Below, piece by piece: positions 7,959-56,615 of a DNA stretch of 64,000 nt. Below the pieces are notes generated by a model that worked only from the letters and a program-made list of their open reading frames with translations, was not told the origin of the DNA and searched no databases. The DNA comes from Streptomyces sp. NBC_01478 (lineage in GTDB: Bacteria > Actinomycetota > Actinomycetes > Streptomycetales > Streptomycetaceae). Made by a program: the position numbers and the translations under genes. The stretch is from assembly GCF_036227225.1 (NCBI RefSeq), contig NZ_CP109444.1, positions 5,623,501-5,687,500 of the forward strand. Reading direction: 5' to 3'. The stretch's first letter is position 1, and every line of letters begins with the position of its first letter.

Positions 7959-8629
7959 CGACGCCTCCACAGGCTGTGGACAACCAGTGCACCGCACGAA
8001 CTGGGCACCATGCTGCCATGAAGGACGCCTTCCGGAGGGCCGGAGAAGCCGCTTGAGATCGCGTGAAGACGCCCTGGACGAGGGACAACCGGACAAGGAA
8101 GACCCTACGTCCGCGACGCGAATGCGCCCCCGATACGCTCCCCCAAAACACCTAACGCGCCCTCAACTCCCGTGGTAGGAGCGGTATTCGGCGCCGAGAG
8201 TCAGGGTCGATTTTCGGCCAAATCGGCGCGACGAGGACAGGCTCGCGCACGCTCCGTACACGCCTTGCGCACCGCTTCGCACCGCGCACAGTCCGGGAGG
8301 CGGAGTACGCCTCCCGGACCGGTCCGCCGCCCGCGGGGATGTAGGCGGCGGTGTCCCCCAGCCCACTGGATCCAGTACAGCGGGCCGACCCACGCACGAT
8401 CCATGGAACCGCTCCCCCGATGGCCGGAGAAGAGCGCACACACAGGCGCACGGCCACACGACGGGGGCACGTCGCAACCCTGCGTGCAAACCCCGCACTC
8501 GCGTACGGACCACAATCCCGCCAACCGGAACAATGCCCCTTAACGCTTGGGATGCGGCGAACTACGCTGGGTTTACGAATGCCGCATGGTTATGCCAGCG
8601 CGGCAGCCGTCTGTGTCGAGGGGTGGCGC
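7959..8629. other. Divergent intergenic region upstream of the sporulation-associated gene
   Basis: 671 bases with no convincing coding frame. Short frames here have no recognisable products. The right end holds a plausible promoter (8540-8568). No lasso-type precursor peptide was recognised in either strand. Confidence 0.5.
8540..8568 (+). promoter_or_regulatory. Candidate promoter of the sporulation-associated HTH/TPR gene
   Basis: TTAACG at 8540-8545 and TACGCT at 8563-8568 are separated by 17 bases, about 60 bases before the ATG at 8630. The spacing fits a HrdB-type promoter. The boxes are imperfect and untested. Confidence 0.35.
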
Positions 8630-15738: not shown

Positions 15739-16149
15739 GTGGGCGTGCTCCTTTCCTTCCTTCTCGCCTACCGGGTTAGCTGACGGGTTCGGAGCAGGAA
15801 GGTCTCCTACGCGCGTAAACCTGCCGTGTTCCCACGGCTGTCGACGAGCGATTCACCCCAAGTGGTGGTTCCCCGGTTCCCTCGCGGGATTCGGCGCGTG
15901 CGCACGGAGCTGTCTCTTGTGACAACTGGGACGACCGCGCTGCGTTATCGAACGTTAATAGACACAGGCACCCCTTTCCAAGCCGTTCCGCTTGATCATT
16001 AACCTTTCCTTGCTGGACGAACGGCCCACCACCGGCGAAAAACGGGCGAGTTGGCCAAGTCTCAGAATTCCCACAGGTATTGACGGTATGTCAGTTGTTA
16101 TGCGGAGGGCGGTCGCCCGATCACGGCCCGTGATATCCGGCCCGGACGG
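15739..16149. other. 5' leader and upstream region of the M23 peptidase gene
   Basis: 411 bases without a coding gene. The left half (about 15755-15890) is the c-di-AMP riboswitch. The right part (15900-16100) is AT-richer and should contain the promoter on the minus strand. No box pair was convincing enough to mark. Confidence 0.6.
15755..15890 (-). promoter_or_regulatory. c-di-AMP (ydaO/yuaA) riboswitch
   Basis: Read on the minus strand, the leader contains the aptamer hallmarks GGGGTGAATC, CGTAGGAGACCTTCCTG, and CCGAACCCGTCAGCTAACC followed by CGGTAGGCGAG. ACCGGGG on the 5' side can pair with CCCGGT on the 3' side as the closing stem. It ends about 17 bases before the GTG of the M23 peptidase gene. 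Known behaviour of the class: c-di-AMP binding turns expression of cell-wall hydrolases off. The edges are approximate. Confidence 0.9.
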
Positions 16150-36215: not shown

Positions 36216-36435
36216 GCGAATGCGAAACCTTCCGGAGTATCCGTCGGCACGCGCCCGTCAACTCCGTGATTCGCTATCGACCGCCTCAATGCGGTCCGCC
36301 ACGGCAAGGGAGAGTACGCGCCACACGGCGCGCTCTACAGTGGCGCCGGGCAATGGGATCAAACGATCTACCACCTTACGCACCTACCACCCCCCAACGC
36401 AAACCAGCCTTCATTGACCTGCGTCACACCCGCCG

Positions 36436-36951
36436 CTACGCCGGAGAGCCGGCCGCCGGCGCCGGCTCACGGTCCACGAGCTGCGGTACGGGGTCCTCGT
36501 GGGCCGACGACGAGGGCTCCGCGACCGTCGGAGCGGCGGACGACGGCTGCGCGGACGGCGTCGGGTCCGGGGGCGGCGGCGTCCGCGTCGGGGTCGGCTG
36601 CGGCGCGGCCGTCGTCGGTGCCCCCGGCTTCGCGCTCGTCCCCGGTCTCGGCGGGGCGGAGGCGGACGGGCTCACCGCTCCCGGCGCGGACGGCGAGGCC
36701 GAACCCGAGGCGGACTCCCCGGGCTTGGGCTTGCCGTGCCCGTGCTTCCCGTCCCCCGCCGAACCACCGAACCCGAGCCCGCCCCCCGGCGCCCCCGAAC
36801 CACCGTCCGGTACCTCACCGGCATGCCGCCCGGCGGAGTGCGAGGGCTTGGCACCGCCGCCCGCGTCGTCACCCACACTCATACAGCCGGCGGCAGCGGC
36901 GACGACGGCGACCGCGGCGACCAGACGGACGGGTACGTACATGGGGCGCAC
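36436..36951 (-). CDS. Small proline/serine-rich lipoprotein of unknown function
   Basis: 171 aa from the GTG at 36951, chosen because GGAGGT sits 6 bases upstream; the ATG at 36942 is possible. The lipobox VVAAAAGC after a short hydrophobic signal predicts a lipid-anchored surface protein. The rest is low-complexity Gly/Pro/Ser sequence without a recognised domain. It is convergent with nothing and follows the helicase gene on the same strand. Confidence 0.6.
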   Translation of the reverse strand: MRPMYVPVRLVAAVAVVAAAAGCMSVGDDAGGGAKPSHSAGRHAGEVPDGGSGAPGGGLGFGGSAGDGKHGHGKPKPGESASGSASPSAPGAVSPSASAPPRPGTSAKPGAPTTAAPQPTPTRTPPPPDPTPSAQPSSAAPTVAEPSSSAHEDPVPQLVDREPAPAAGSPA

Positions 36952-37270
36952 GGGGCCACCTCCGAGGGCGAAAAAGGGAGTCCCCCTCTCAACTCCCGCC
37001 GCCCACCGGAAGACACGCACCGCACGGCCCCACCCCGGTTTCCGACCCGGAGACGACCGGTTCCCGACCTGTTCCCGTCCCCACACAGGCCGAGAATCGC
37101 CGCTACGGCATCCGCCACAACCCCCACTCCCCTTCAACTCATCTAATCTCCCCTCAAATCACCCCAACTCCCCTTCCCCAGAACCGACTTCGGGGACATA
37201 CCGAACAAGCCCGCTCTGCCGCCTCCGCGCCCACCGCCCCGAACCGGCGTTCGTCCCGGACAATGGGCAT

Positions 37271-37621
37271 GTGCTGGAAATGACACGCGAGGCATTCGAA
37301 GAGCTGGTGAGCGAGGCCCTGGACCGGATCCCGCCGGAGCTGACGCGGGTCATGGACAACGTGGCCGTCTTCGTCGAGGACGAACCCGACCCCGCCGACC
37401 CCGAACTCCTCGGCCTCTACGAAGGAACACCCCTCACCGAACGCGGCGAGTGGTACGCCGGCGTCCTCCCCGACCGGATCTCCATCTACATGGGCCCGAC
37501 CCTGCGCTACTGCGCCACCACCGAGGAAGTCGTCCACGAGGTCGCCGTCACCGTCGTCCACGAAGTCGCCCACCACTTCGGCATCGACGACGAACGCCTG
37601 CACGAACTCGGCTGGGGCTGA
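37271..37621 (+). CDS. Small zincin-like metallopeptidase (MMP-like domain)
   Basis: 116 aa from the GTG at 37271; an ATG at 37280 is an alternative. The protein is one domain, with FEELVSEALDRIPPELTRVM near the start and the zinc motif HEVAHHFGID (HExxH) followed by DERLHELGWG. This is the short zincin family common in actinobacteria. The cellular substrate is not known. A structured repeat starts about 60 bases after the stop. Confidence 0.88.
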   Translation: MLEMTREAFEELVSEALDRIPPELTRVMDNVAVFVEDEPDPADPELLGLYEGTPLTERGEWYAGVLPDRISIYMGPTLRYCATTEEVVHEVAVTVVHEVAHHFGIDDERLHELGWG

Positions 37622-37921
37622 CCCGCACCGCACCCGCCCCCGCAGCCCTCGCCCCGGGGCCCCCTTCCCGCCGCCGACCCTGTCCTGTCTGGAAGCTGGG
37701 GTCTTTCCTAACCGGTCAAAGCCCGTGAAGGTGGTTAGTTTTACCCCCAGCCTCCAGCACCCCCCACCCCATTCCTGCGGCTCGCGCCACACACCCGCCC
37801 CTACCTGCCTTCCAGCGGCCACCCCCGCACACCAGGCCCCGGCCCCGCGCATCCCTCCCCCACGCCCCACTCCCGCGCCCCGCCCCGCATACCTGCCCCC
37901 ACCCCTGGGCATACGGGACCA
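37622..37921. other. Intergenic region holding a structured repeat, then C-rich sequence
   Basis: 300 bases between the zincin and phosphoesterase genes. The left third is the hairpin element (37675-37756). The rest is C-rich with no gene or clear promoter seen. Confidence 0.5.
37675..37756 (+). repeat. Structured repeat (hairpin element), copy A
   Basis: AGCTGGGGT and ACCCCCAGC form an outer stem, with TTCCTAACCGGTCA and GGTGGTTAGTTTT inside (CTAACC/GGTTAG). Copy B lies at 55288-55362 with the same design. The pair GCTGGGG/CCCCAGC here is GCCGGGG/CCCCGGC there, a compensatory change. Confidence 0.75.
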
Positions 37922-39496
37922 ATGGCCCGCGTCCCCGTCGCAGCCCTGAACCGCCTCCGCCGAACCCGGCACGCCCTGATCCGCCGGCACCGCGCCCGCC
38001 GTCCCCGCCCCGTCGTCGAGCTCGTCCCCCAGCCGCACCCCTGGACCCGCGCCCTCGGCCTCGTGATGGTCGTCATCGTCGGGGCCTGGCTCGGTCTGCT
38101 GATCGTCGGCAACGTACGGGCCCAGGTCGGCCCCATGAACACGACCATGACCCTGCGCCCGTCCCTCACCGGCGGCACGAAGATCAACGTGTCCCCGCTC
38201 GGCGCGCTCTCCCTGGACAGCCACCACGCCCCGGTCCGCCTCGACGTCAACGTCGACCAGCTCGACCCGGAACGCTCCCAGGCCCTCGTCGACCACCCAG
38301 AACGCATCTCCGGCCTCCAGGACGAGGTCGCCCGGGACGTCGAACACGGCACCCTCGACCTCGCCGTACGCTCCTGCACCGCCGTGGTCCTCGGCGCCAC
38401 CACCCTCGGCCTCGCGGTCTACCGCCGCCCCCGCCGGGCCCTCGCCGCCGGCGGCCTCGCCCTGACCCTCCTGGCGGCGTCCGGAGCGACGGCGTACGCG
38501 ACCTGGAACCCCAAGTCGATCCTCGAACCGAAATTCTCGGGACTGCTCTCCTCCGCCCCGTCCCTGGTCGGCAACGCGCGCAACATCGTCACCGAATTCG
38601 ACGTCTACCAGAAGGAGTTGGCCCGCCTGGTGACCAACGTGACCAAGCTCTACGACGTCACGTCCACGCTCCCCGCGTACCAGCCGGACCCCGCGACCAT
38701 CCGCGTGCTCCACGTCTCGGACATCCACCTGAACCCCGCGAGCTGGAAGATCATCGCGTCACTGGTGGAGCAGTACGAGGTGAACGTCATCGTCGACACC
38801 GGCGACACCATGGACCACGGCACGACCGCCGAGAACGGCTTCCTCGACCCGATCGCCGACCTGGGCGTCCCGTACGTCTGGGTCAGGGGCAACCACGACT
38901 CCCTCGCCACCCAGCGCTACCTCGAGCACATCAAGAACGTGCACGTCCTGGACGAGGGCCGCGCGGAAACGGTCGCCGGCGTGCGCTTCGCGGGCATCGG
39001 CGACCCCCAGTTCACCCCCGACCGCTCTACCGCCCCGGGCGGCAACGCGGCGGAGGAACTGGCCGGCGACCAGCTCGCCTCCGCCCTCCGCGACCAGCGG
39101 GCCGCCGGCACCCCGGTCGACATCGCCCTGGTCCACGAACCGTCGGCGGCCCGCCAGACCGACGGCGAGGTCCCGCTCGTCCTGGCCGGCCACCTCCACC
39201 ACGAGGGCACCGAGGTCATGAAGCACGGCACCCGCCTCCGTATCGAAGGCTCCACGGGCGGCAGCGGACTGCGCGCGGTCGAGGGCAAGTACCCCGACCC
39301 GATCGAGGCGTCGATCCTCTACATCGACCGAGACACCCACCGCCTCCAGGCCTGGGACGAGATCAAACTCGGCGGCCTGGGCCTGACGACGGCAGAGGTC
39401 AGCCGCCACCTCCCGAAGGAGAACCTGCCGGGCGCGCCACAGTCGCCGAGTCCGTCCCCGAGCCCTTCCCCTTCGGCGTCCCCTTCGGCCCCGTAA
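37922..39496 (+). CDS. Membrane-anchored metallophosphoesterase
   Basis: 524 aa from the ATG at 37922. Two hydrophobic segments (about 40-60 and 150-200) precede a calcineurin-like domain with all the metal motifs: VLHVSDIHLNPASW, VDTGDTMDHG, WVRGNHDSLA and VLAGHLHHEGTEV. The tail ends in a Ser/Pro run (SPSPSPSPSASPSAP). The active site should face outside or lie near the membrane; the substrate is unknown. It ends 80 bases before the tRNA-Glu gene. Confidence 0.88.
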   Translation: MARVPVAALNRLRRTRHALIRRHRARRPRPVVELVPQPHPWTRALGLVMVVIVGAWLGLLIVGNVRAQVGPMNTTMTLRPSLTGGTKINVSPLGALSLDSHHAPVRLDVNVDQLDPERSQALVDHPERISGLQDEVARDVEHGTLDLAVRSCTAVVLGATTLGLAVYRRPRRALAAGGLALTLLAASGATAYATWNPKSILEPKFSGLLSSAPSLVGNARNIVTEFDVYQKELARLVTNVTKLYDVTSTLPAYQPDPATIRVLHVSDIHLNPASWKIIASLVEQYEVNVIVDTGDTMDHGTTAENGFLDPIADLGVPYVWVRGNHDSLATQRYLEHIKNVHVLDEGRAETVAGVRFAGIGDPQFTPDRSTAPGGNAAEELAGDQLASALRDQRAAGTPVDIALVHEPSAARQTDGEVPLVLAGHLHHEGTEVMKHGTRLRIEGSTGGSGLRAVEGKYPDPIEASILYIDRDTHRLQAWDEIKLGGLGLTTAEVSRHLPKENLPGAPQSPSPSPSPSPSASPSAP

Positions 39497-53785: not shown

Positions 53786-53830
53786 GAAAAAAGATTGACT
53801 CGGTATATGGAAGTGTCGCATCGTGGAGGC

Positions 53831-55318
53831 ATGACCGAGACCCAGCGCCGCATCGGCTTCCTCGTCTGTCTGGTGACGATCGTTCTGGCCGTCCTGGACA
53901 TGCAGATCGTGTCCGCGGCGACCGTGCCGATCGTCCGCGACCTGGACCCCGCCCATGGCATCGACAAGATCCCGTGGCTGGTCAGCGCGTTCGCGCTGGC
54001 GTCGGCCGCGGTGCTCCCGCTGTACGGCACCTTGTGCGACACCCTCGGCGCGAAGCGCGTTTTCCTGACGGCCGTGGGGGTGTTCCTGGTCGGCTCGGCG
54101 CTGTGCGGGGCGGCTCAGTCCATAGCGCAGTTGATCGCCGCGCGGGCCGTGCAGGGCATCGGTGCCGGCGGCCTGATGAGCGTCACGATGGTGGTGATCG
54201 CCGAGCTGAGAGGCCCCGGCGAGAGGGACGCCAAGGGCGCGGGCATGGGTGGGGTCGTCTCCGGCGGCGGAATGGCGGTCGGCCCGTGGATCGGCGGCCT
54301 GCTCGCGGACCACGCGAGCTGGCGCTGGATCTTCTACGTCAACCTGCCGCTCGGCATGGCCGTGCTTGTCCTCGGCGCGCTCGTCCTGAGACTGCCCCGG
54401 GAGCCGCACCGCCACCGCATCGACTTCCTGGGCGCGGCCCTTGCCGCCGCGTTCTCGGCGGCGCTGCTGCTGATGACCGAGTGGGGCGGGAAGCAGTACG
54501 CGTGGTCGTCACCGCAGATCGTGGGGCTGGCCCTGGCCGCGGTGGCCGCGCTCGCCCTCTTCGTGTGGCGCCAGAAGGCGGCGCCCGAGCCGATCCTGCC
54601 GCTGTCCCTGTTCCGGGTGCGGGAGTTGCGGTGGGGGTTCGCGATCCAGGGGTTGATGGGGGCGGCGATCGTGGGCGCCATGTACTACGTCATGGTCTAT
54701 CTCCAGGTGGCCCGTGGCATCACCAGCTCCTCGGCCGGCCTCTACCTGCTCCCCATGGCCCTCGGCATGACCGTGGTCGGCTTCCTCTCCGCCAAGCTGA
54801 CGGAACGGGGCTGGCACGAGCGGACGTTCGCGATAGCCGGCTCCGTGATCGGCACGGTGGCGTTCCTGTCCCTGTCCACCCTGGGCACGGACACGTCCCT
54901 CTGGCTGCTGCGCGGAGATCTGCTCCTGGTCGGCGTGGGCTTCGGCCTCCTCCTCGGCCAGCTCATCCAACTGGTCCAGGAGGCGGCCCCCCGACACCAG
55001 TTGGGCGTGGCCACGACCGCCATCCGCTTCTTCCAGACCCTGGGCACGGCGCTGGGCGCGGCACTCTTCGGCACGGTGATCACTCGGCTGTACGACGGCC
55101 CCGGCCCGCTCGCGTCACTGACGGGGGCGGCGCGAGTGGCGGGGGTGAGCTCGTACGTCGACGCGATGGACGCGGTGTTCCTGTGCGGGGCGGTGTTGAT
55201 GGGGGTGTGCGTGGTGATGGCACTGCGGTTGCCGAGGCACTCGGGTCCCCGGGACGCCGGGCAGGTTTCCGCGGAGGTGGCCCGACCTGTCCCCTCTGCA
55301 AGCCGGGGTCGTTCCTAA
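53831..55318 (+). CDS. MFS drug exporter (DHA2, 14 helices)
   Basis: 495 aa from the ATG at 53831 (MTETQRRIGFLVCLVTIVLA). GGAGG precedes it by only one base; an ATG at 53807 has no ribosome site. The DHA2 signatures are DMQIVSAATVPIVRDL, WLVSAFALASAAVLPLYGTLCDTLG and the motif-C-like VSGGGMAVGPWIGG. About 14 helices. It exports drugs or a metabolite by proton antiport. The divergent TetR and downstream flavin monooxygenase suggest a detoxification cassette. The last codons lie inside structured repeat copy B. Confidence 0.92.
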   Translation: MTETQRRIGFLVCLVTIVLAVLDMQIVSAATVPIVRDLDPAHGIDKIPWLVSAFALASAAVLPLYGTLCDTLGAKRVFLTAVGVFLVGSALCGAAQSIAQLIAARAVQGIGAGGLMSVTMVVIAELRGPGERDAKGAGMGGVVSGGGMAVGPWIGGLLADHASWRWIFYVNLPLGMAVLVLGALVLRLPREPHRHRIDFLGAALAAAFSAALLLMTEWGGKQYAWSSPQIVGLALAAVAALALFVWRQKAAPEPILPLSLFRVRELRWGFAIQGLMGAAIVGAMYYVMVYLQVARGITSSSAGLYLLPMALGMTVVGFLSAKLTERGWHERTFAIAGSVIGTVAFLSLSTLGTDTSLWLLRGDLLLVGVGFGLLLGQLIQLVQEAAPRHQLGVATTAIRFFQTLGTALGAALFGTVITRLYDGPGPLASLTGAARVAGVSSYVDAMDAVFLCGAVLMGVCVVMALRLPRHSGPRDAGQVSAEVARPVPSASRGRS

Positions 55319-55362
55319 CTGGTCACGCTCAAGACAGTGGTTAGTTTCTACCCCGGCTTCCG
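55288..55362 (+). repeat. Structured repeat (hairpin element), copy B
   Basis: AAGCCGGGGT and ACCCCGGCTT form the outer stem; TTCCTAACTGGTCA and GTGGTTAGTTT are inside. It overlaps the end of the MFS gene (stop at 55318). Copy A is at 37675-37756. Confidence 0.75.
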
Positions 55363-55496
55363 GTGAGCCACCCCCTGTCGGGCATCTGTCGGAGCTGTCG
55401 GTGCCGCGTCAGCGAACTGTCGGCGGGGCGTTGAAGCCTTGGGAGAGATCCCGCCGGGTGACCGTCCGGCAGGCCCGCGACACATAAGGAGTCGGC

Positions 55497-56615
55497 ATGA
55501 CCACTCACGTCACGATCATCGGCGCAGGACTCGGCGGACTGACCCTGGCCCGCGTCCTGCACGTCCACGGCATACCGGCCACCGTCTACGAGGCGGAGGC
55601 CTCGCCGATGGCCCGGCTGCAGGGCGGGATGCTCGACATTCACGACTACAACGGCCAACTGGCTCTGGAAGAAGCCGACTTGATGGACGAGTTCCGCGCC
55701 ATCATCCTGGAGGGACGGCAGGCGACCCGGGTCCTCGCCCCGGACGGAACCGTTCTGCTCGACAAGCCCGACGACGGCACGGGCACCCGTCCCGAGGTGC
55801 AGCGCGGCGCGTTGCGGCAGATCCTCCTCGACTCGCTCCCGGCCGGCACCGTGCGGTGGGGTCACAAGGTCACCGGGACCCGCACCCTCGCCGACGGCCG
55901 CCATGAAGTGGCCTTCACCGACGGCGGCATCGTCGTCACCAGTCTCCTTGTCGGCGCCGACGGCGCTTGGTCGCGGGTGCGGCCGCTGTTGTCCGACGTC
56001 AGCCCGGAGTATTTCGGCCGGGCCTTCGTCGAGGCCTATCTGTACGACGCCGAGACCCGGCATCCCGCCGCCGCGAAGGCGGTCGGCGGCGGCTCGCTGT
56101 TCGTGTTCGACAAGGGCACGAGCGAGAGGTGGATCGCGGCACACCGGGAGAGCGGCGAAACGCTGCACGCCTATATGACGCTGGCTCGGCCGCAGGAGTG
56201 GTTCGACGACATCGACTTCACCGACGCCGCCGCGGCCACCCCGCGGATCGCCGCGGAGTTCGAGGGCTGGGCCCCCGAGATCACCGCCCTGATCACCGAC
56301 AGCGACACAGCTCCGGTCGTACGACCCCTCAACTCGCTGCCGATCGGGCACCGTTGGGACCGGGTGCCGGGAGTGACCCTCCTCGGCGACGCCGCCCATC
56401 TCTCCCCGCCGGACGGCGAGGGCGCCAACCTCGCCATGCAGGACGGCGCCGAACTCGCCCTCGCCATCGCCGCGTACCCGGACGACATCGAGCAGGCGCT
56501 CACCTCGTACGAGGAGGCACTGTTCCCCCGGAGCGCCACAGCCGCCGTCGAGGCCGTGGCCACCAACGAAGCCATCGGTCAGGACCCGTTCGCCTTCTTC
56601 GACCAGGAGGCCTGA
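55497..56615 (+). CDS. FAD-dependent monooxygenase, TetX-like
   Basis: 372 aa from the ATG at 55497, with AAGGAG 7 bases upstream. The FAD motifs are VTIIGAGLGGLTLARVL (GxGxxG), EVQRGALRQILLDSL (the Arg-containing family segment), LLVGADGAWSRVRPLL (DG motif) and VTLLGDAAHLSPPDGEGANL (GD motif). The layout follows the class A flavin monooxygenases near TetX, which hydroxylate tetracyclines and other aromatics. Substrate unknown. Gene order TetR-MFS-monooxygenase suggests modification plus export of one compound. Confidence 0.88.
   Translation: MTTHVTIIGAGLGGLTLARVLHVHGIPATVYEAEASPMARLQGGMLDIHDYNGQLALEEADLMDEFRAIILEGRQATRVLAPDGTVLLDKPDDGTGTRPEVQRGALRQILLDSLPAGTVRWGHKVTGTRTLADGRHEVAFTDGGIVVTSLLVGADGAWSRVRPLLSDVSPEYFGRAFVEAYLYDAETRHPAAAKAVGGGSLFVFDKGTSERWIAAHRESGETLHAYMTLARPQEWFDDIDFTDAAAATPRIAAEFEGWAPEITALITDSDTAPVVRPLNSLPIGHRWDRVPGVTLLGDAAHLSPPDGEGANLAMQDGAELALAIAAYPDDIEQALTSYEEALFPRSATAAVEAVATNEAIGQDPFAFFDQEA

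Follow-up and report, generated by a model that had tools for sequence, protein, structure and literature searches.

Short palindromic sequences that are dispersed, mostly extragenic and often located behind genes are familiar as REP elements and BIMEs, which are associated with RAYT transposases; another familiar hairpin, the intrinsic terminator, consists of a GC stem and then a T-run. Further systems are relevant here. ERIC- and MITE-like repeats are palindromes of ~100 bp that are intergenic and sometimes in-frame in ORFs, one of which is reported to favour 3' UTRs, and the Rickettsia palindromic elements are inserted in-frame inside a protein-coding gene (PMC10969869). The U-poor, structured 3' ends of Streptomyces transcripts have been likened to I-shaped terminators (PMC8269248). 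Lastly, when template switching occurs in replication, hairpin stems may be both generated and repaired by it (PMC8794818).

A hairpin that occurs twice in a 64,000-nucleotide stretch of DNA from Streptomyces sp. NBC_01478 (the window, to which positions refer unless stated otherwise) has something in common with each of these. Like the REP elements and BIMEs, it is short, palindromic, mostly extragenic, dispersed and often behind genes; unlike them, it is accompanied in NBC_01478 by only a partial Y1 match, and half of its copies in that genome lie within kilobase palindromes. It resembles the ERIC/MITE-like repeats of PMC10969869 in being of similar size, palindromic, intergenic and sometimes in-frame, but it has been seen only in a few Streptomyces, and no partner IS is known. 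As with the Rickettsia elements, an in-frame insert is retained, here at one locus in an AfsR/SARP gene, and one reading frame is open in 11 of the 11 translated copies of the element, although only one of the 14 NBC_01478 copies is known to be intragenic and the likeness is by analogy. With the U-poor 3' ends of PMC8269248 it shares a GC-rich hairpin behind genes without a T-run, yet it has fixed boxes and is found inside a gene and upstream of a gene start as well. Finally, as in the template-switch hairpins of PMC8794818, one arm can be a reverse-complement copy of the other and apparent compensatory changes come in blocks; that paper, however, treats RNA genes, and the present case is a dispersed DNA repeat. 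We consider it likely, at a probability of roughly 0.6, that the hairpins belong to a lineage-restricted, dispersed repeat of the REP/ERIC/MITE-like kind, ~80–110 bp in length, that is recognized through its sequence, whether in DNA form or extruded into a hairpin, and is not a classical RNA gene.

Two copies in the window

Both copies are on the plus strand and were matched by a covariance model, R2, over all 89 of its positions: copy 1 at 37680..37768 (G000:C1:5661180-5661268; E 4.6e-25) and copy 2 at 55287..55374 (G000:C1:5678787-5678874; E 8.7e-20), E values that are to be read in the knowledge that both copies are themselves in the model. Within copy 1, the outer box GCTGGGG (37695..37701) and the inner box CTAACC (37708..37713) of the 5' side are answered on the 3' side by GGTTAG (37733..37738) and CCCCAGC (37745..37751). 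In copy 2, the corresponding boxes are GCCGGGG (55302..55308), CTAACT (55315..55320), GGTTAG (55339..55344) and CCCCGGC (55351..55357). In both cases, GCYGGGG pairs with CCCCRGC and CTAAC(C/T) with GGTTAG, and a six-base segment lies between the boxes on each side. The predicted folds have energies of −32.0 kcal/mol (z −2.5) for copy 1 and −31.7 kcal/mol (z −1.9) for copy 2. The shared boxes quoted in the preliminary description are all present, and both copies fold as it had drawn them.

Its account of the surroundings also holds: copy 1 follows, by 58 nt, the ORF of a zincin-like metallopeptidase (36266..37621, plus strand; domain at residues 363–450, true start uncertain), and copy 2 overlaps the 3' end of an MFS transporter ORF (53795..55318, plus strand; assigned through Pfam MFS_1 and homolog C-termini), the last codons and stop of which lie inside the element. 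The two copies are real, but the extent first given for copy 1 was too short, as similarity runs from ~37633 to 37769: a 140-bp stretch matches a giant palindrome copy (C313) of Streptomyces sp. MBT65 with 86% identity, and by eye the ~50 nt upstream of the hairpin resemble the left arm of the giant palindromes of NBC_01478 described below. To judge from these sequence matches, copy 1 together with its left-arm remnant (37633..37769, plus strand) is a fragment of the giant-palindrome type that retains ~50 bp of the left arm. Copy 2 has an ortholog at the same place in MBT65 (C56/L114). Elsewhere in the window, Rfam identifies a c-di-AMP riboswitch (15750-15906, minus strand) and the Scr4115 sRNA (8287-8395, minus strand).

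Family size and distribution

In the whole NBC_01478 genome, TTCCTAACYGGTCA occurs at 9 exact places and at 11 with up to one mismatch (one of the two one-mismatch places, L011, is not a family member), against 0 for a reversed-pattern control. Model R2, built from 16 copies and run with lax filters on three genomes, found 14 distinct places in NBC_01478 (12.1-Mb genome), 10 in MBT65 (G061; locus L037) and 3 in a third genome, G207; in these counts hits on both strands are merged and matches above E 0.01 omitted, among them one weak match (E 0.36–0.48) in each genome (NBC_01478 8120175, G061 C383 and G207 C531). The further copies that the preliminary description had proposed to seek with a covariance model therefore exist, and a chance origin of the window pair is excluded, because TTCCTAACYGGTCA recurs against a zero control and the model finds 14 places. 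All 14 lie between 3.7 and 6.8 Mb of the 12.1 Mb, that is, in the central chromosome. The loose-pattern loci L011–L014 and L023 were dropped, being without the two-box element. L023 (NBC_01478 6332175-6332205) and L042 of MBT65 represent another conserved hairpin, CTAACCGCTGTAGGG...GCGGTTAG in NBC_01478, at apparently orthologous places and without outer boxes.

The family appears narrowly distributed. Across 392 sampled Streptomyces genomes, searched with stricter filters at which weak matches are lost, matches were obtained only in NBC_01478 and G207, the other 390 giving none. A strict pattern matched NBC_01478 only among 61 genomes, and in a scan of 84,980 species, one genome each, it found two stretches in MBT65 and a third in Flavihumibacter, the predicted fold of the latter being without the outer stem. 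Protein evidence extends the family to Streptomyces sp. N50, through an insert in the AfsR/SARP homolog P0002, and we infer a copy in Streptomyces sp. NBC_01239 from the C-terminus SSGSRGHF of its MFS homolog, P0121.

Several sources for such a repeat found no support. The preliminary description recognized no named family, and indeed the hairpin was unmatched in Rfam 15 at gathering scores; a permissive Rfam search of eight loci returned an animal lncRNA family overlapping the L010 copy at E 0.58 and one other match lying elsewhere, and a known RNA family is thus not supported. A phage or plasmid repeat is likewise unsupported, as a blastn search with copy 1 found no match among phages and plasmids and the strict pattern is absent from the viral_contigs collection. 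Flanks of rRNA operons are rejected as the cause of seven near-identical copies, since a search of 12 loci detected no rRNA. Y1_Tnp, the sole transposase family searched for, gave across the NBC_01478 genome no full-length RAYT and one partial match, which lies in a 385-aa open frame, covers 30/121 positions and narrowly exceeds the curated cut-off (E 2.2e-4; 24.4 bits, cut-off 23), so a RAYT-driven REP has no clear support. As for MITE features, palindromic arms are present and, by eye, an imperfect flanking duplication of ~40 bp is seen at the ABC ATPase site described below. Literature searches that named Streptomyces, confined to open-licence papers, brought up no title or opening of an abstract concerned with this hairpin repeat or with palindromes such as those below.

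Genomic placement

Seven of the 14 copies in NBC_01478 are inside giant non-coding palindromes and an eighth is beside an apparent half palindrome (by eye, copy 3726701 is followed by an apparent half of a giant). Gene calls next to the giants, being crude, do not enter the following counts. Among the seven non-giant copies, five are behind genes: the two window copies (one 58 nt past the zincin ORF, the other overlapping the end of the MFS ORF) and those located 11 nt behind a DEAD/ResIII helicase gene, 26 nt behind an ABC ATPase gene (before the next gene) and 3 nt behind a HATPase gene. Of the remaining two, one is intergenic, upstream of an aminotransferase start, and the other is in frame inside the ORF of an AfsR/SARP regulator. 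Hence, six of the seven are outside the predicted gene body, one of the six overlapping a stop codon. An initial assignment of the 599-residue gene beside NBC_01478 4649666 as PEP carboxykinase was discarded, since Pfam gives DEAD/ResIII helicase.

In two cases the element contributes to a protein. The MFS stop codon TAA (55316-55318) belongs to the CCTAAC box of window copy 2, and the last residues of the transporter are element-encoded; among 29 homologs compared, 28 have other C-terminal ends, and that of P0121 is what the element would encode. The AfsR/SARP ORF carries the in-frame insert LSPLEAGGRSNQSKPKTVVRSTPSFQ, which can be recognized in Streptomyces sp. N50 and of which MBT65 has the beginning, up to a contig end; of 59 homologs, NBC_01478 included, 50 have a readable linker without the insert and six are unreadable. 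The insert site is a linker that in the 50 readable homologs is short or filled by unrelated repeats. This linker, before RYGMHDL (L102:3765-7040), is hypervariable across Streptomyces homologs and often contains QRADTTPAPTGTSTPD-type repeats.

The main rival to a repeat recognized by sequence is a 3'-end RNA hairpin, namely, an I-shaped (U-less) terminator or an mRNA-processing or stability hairpin that has been copied from gene to gene. The proximity of five of the seven non-giant copies to stop codons (at 58, 11, 26 and 3 nt, or overlapping in the case of MFS) is what this reading would predict, as is an MBT65 copy (C822) located 10 nt behind phoU on the opposite strand; structured, U-poor 3' ends occur in Streptomyces clavuligerus (PMC8269248), and the constraint on the stem boxes reported below would suit it too. 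However, one copy is inside an ORF and another upstream of the aminotransferase start, the stem pairing is without covariation beyond shuffles on most measures, and a terminator needs no invariant CTAAC/GTTAG. Moreover, consensus scanning of 37000-38300 and 54800-55800, around the two window copies, found no terminator-like sites and no T-run after the hairpin; an intrinsic terminator with a T-run behind the two window copies is accordingly rejected. Overall, we regard a 3'-end hairpin as an unlikely explanation. The element probably also acts as a 3'-end structure in transcripts, a secondary role that may coexist with recognition of the repeat by sequence.

Constraint on the boxes and covariation

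From the 27 places, an alignment (A6) with 21 rows was made. Three copies, MBT65 C185 and C276 and G207 C246, are perfect or near-perfect palindromes at contig ends and, as possible assembly fold-backs, were left out of the alignments while being counted as places; the near-identical giant copies at NBC_01478 4823129, 5199927 and 5259401, with boxes intact, were also left out of A6. The core of the element comprises two half-sites in inverted orientation, each made up of two boxes (GCYGGGG-N6-CTAACC); their internal spacing is constant in the 21 aligned copies, with 18–19 bases between the inner boxes. CTAAC/GTTAG is invariant in all 21 (as is the whole GGTTAG), and the sixth pair is C-G in 20 and T-G in one; this invariance is in part ascertainment, as the copies were first collected by CTAAC/GGTTAG patterns and the models built from them. 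Outside the alignment, C185 has AGTTAG and C246 is without the outer GCTGGGG box, both at contig ends.

The preliminary description had pointed to a T-A to C-G change in the outer stem as compensatory. The change is present as described, but among the aligned copies it is confined to window copy 2 and its MBT65 ortholog and therefore counts as one event, not repeated covariation. Similarly, pair 12-76 (G-C to A-U) has changed in the orthologous aminotransferase-side copies of NBC_01478 and MBT65, and a third case, at MBT65 phoU, sits in a shifted stretch of the alignment. A search for more covarying pairs, as had been suggested, gave a mixed result: with 16 copies there were 5 double-change pairs against 4.6 in shuffles and a score of 26/500, no measure being clearly above shuffles, whereas with 21 copies (9 double-change pairs against 7.6, score 16/500, cells paired 7/500) two of five measures were modestly above shuffles and three ordinary. 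With most measures within shuffles, the case for a functional RNA demonstrated by covariation is weak; the invariance of the inner stem points instead to sequence recognition.

The element may nonetheless be functional in a broad sense, as its boxes are constrained relative to its loops at orthologous sites. In six pairs of NBC_01478–MBT65 orthologs, box changes number 6/156 against 27/137 in loops (Fisher P 1.4e-5), and in two NBC_01478–G207 pairs 3/52 against 17/46 (P 1.2e-4), P values that are optimistic because the box and loop classes were set from the same copies, making the test partly circular. These comparisons cover 6/8 of the MBT65 and 2/3 of the G207 ortholog pairs, with columns 35-39 and 48-50 omitted. 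The outermost stem columns changed at 2/72 (MBT65) and 6/24 (G207) positions and the flanks at 27/120 and 10/40, respectively; the outermost stem is conserved between NBC_01478 and MBT65 and flank-like between NBC_01478 and G207. These counts support the proposal that the stem boxes are under constraint. Taken together, invariant boxes at fixed spacing, free loops and scarce covariation argue for sequence recognition rather than for an RNA in which structure alone matters.

The six-base segment between the boxes is bimodal: among 17 distinct copies, four have it paired at 5–6 of 6 positions and 13 at 0–2, and the four well-paired segments are mutually unrelated in sequence. By permutation, the count of well-paired copies has P 0.011; summed complementarity, with P 0.19, is not significant. 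Arms that match in novel sequence look like copies of each other, the outcome expected of template switching. A spacer that is unpaired in 13 of 17 copies, two boxes per arm at fixed spacing and an inner box that is invariant in the aligned copies would all befit a site in double-stranded DNA, operator or architectural, that a clade-specific DNA-binding protein occupies, the hairpin being only a by-product of palindromic binding, and the intergenic copy upstream of the aminotransferase is suitably placed. Against this, five of the seven non-giant copies are behind genes and not in promoters, and no candidate protein was found. Half-sites with up to two mismatches occur 9 times in the window against 6.8 expected, four of the nine being those of the two elements, and this lack of a clear excess led us to reject lone half-sites as operators. 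We therefore judge an operator to be quite improbable.

Orthology, giant palindromes and arm copying

By flanking homology, 8 of the 10 places in MBT65 and all 3 in G207 are orthologous to NBC_01478 copies; the MBT65 comparison left out the NBC_01478 giants at 4823129, 5015553, 5199927 and 5259401, and copy 3726701. Because most MBT65 places are orthologous, with NBC_01478–MBT65 flanks 89–97% identical, the family appears to have spread mostly before the two strains split, with a few later gains or losses. Two places are specific to MBT65, C822 (phoU) and C332, the orthologous NBC_01478 sites being without the element. At phoU, the element is absent from G065, G146 and G033 also; at C332, the counterpart site in NBC_01478, which is at 11.25 Mb, holds ~720 bp of other sequence. 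Conversely, MBT65 diverges right after the zincin stop, and window copy 1 is without a counterpart there. A clean empty site with exact ends was sought at phoU, C332 and window copy 1 and found at none of them: there is no clear boundary at phoU, and at the other two the compared sequences diverge. In G207 (C80; L150), the phoU 3' end has an inverted duplication next to an N, possibly a template-switch product or an assembly error. The suggestion of a self-folding mobile element is thus borne out as regards a dispersed palindromic repeat that is present or absent at given sites and lies behind genes or in frame, but not as regards movement itself.

The giant palindromes of NBC_01478 that contain a copy (seven loci, L046–L052) are non-coding inverted repeats of 1.2–1.6 kb. 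Their largest aligned arms are 376–501 bp with 85–92% identity, and the distance from the midpoint of the largest inverted repeat to the start of the inner box is 19–114 bp; in L047 (5320-6612), the arms contain tandem units of 94 and 101 bp. Giant-palindrome pieces, mostly arms, match in at least 40 of 150 sampled Streptomyces genomes, NBC_01478 included, a lower bound since few candidates were scored per genome. Among palindrome regions of other genomes, 8 of 14 were examined. MBT65 C67 has no inverted repeat above the length cut, and the centres of six giants hold other sequence by eye. The central hairpin of a G026 palindrome recurs in another copy in which no second arm could be detected (L137 ~660-790 and L167 1483-1601), and two giants of G125 have in common a central block of ~160 bp with 88% identity (L135 900-1060 and L136 621-780), which is off-centre in one. 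These central sequences of G026 and G125 differ from the NBC_01478 hairpin, as if the core were lineage-own.

One ortholog pair suggests how perfect arms might arise. MBT65 C27 has a left flank, GGTGGGTGGGTGCTGGAGGCTGGG, that corresponds exactly to its right flank in reverse complement (24 bases, the outer 12 of which have changed); in its NBC_01478 ortholog, the left flank is the one usual for other copies and the right flank is like that of MBT65. The left arm of C27 therefore seems to have been copied from the other by template switching, unless the MBT65 assembly is in error.

These observations bear on the last rival, in which the hairpins are debris left by giant palindromes, have no function and owe their likeness solely to gene conversion and template switching. 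Seven of 14 copies within giants, an eighth beside an apparent half giant, the piece of giant arm carried by window copy 1 and the arm copying in C27 would fit, but orthologous stand-alone copies keep their boxes while loops and flanks change, and paralogs with differing loops and flanks keep CTAAC/GTTAG, where conversion would carry the loops along; debris is thus, in our estimation, improbable.

Possible mechanism and implications

In the favoured interpretation of a sequence-recognized repeat, the boxes would be read by a host or mobile-element protein, either in the DNA duplex or once extruded into a single-strand hairpin. Quasi-palindrome template switching would occasionally copy one arm onto the other, which would make perfect stems without step-by-step compensatory selection, and the same process may help to build the giant palindromes.

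A wider proposal, which we offer tentatively and which has the odds against it, is that the kilobase intergenic palindromes of Streptomyces form a general class with lineage-own cores, the core here being an active, spreading hairpin that is recognized by a lineage-specific protein and nucleates palindromes. Such a core would be able to move by itself to sites behind genes and within coding sequence, and to set off the inverted duplication from which the large palindrome around it is built. Were this true, the window hairpins would represent, for one lineage, a chromosomal element of a new kind.

On the strength of sequence comparison, these findings would add to Streptomyces a constrained palindromic repeat family, and what reads its boxes becomes a testable question. 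C27 and its NBC_01478 ortholog provide a pair in which one arm of the palindrome looks like a copy of its partner. Moreover, a small dispersed hairpin is now tied to kilobase palindromes, and whether hairpins seed large bacterial palindromes becomes testable.
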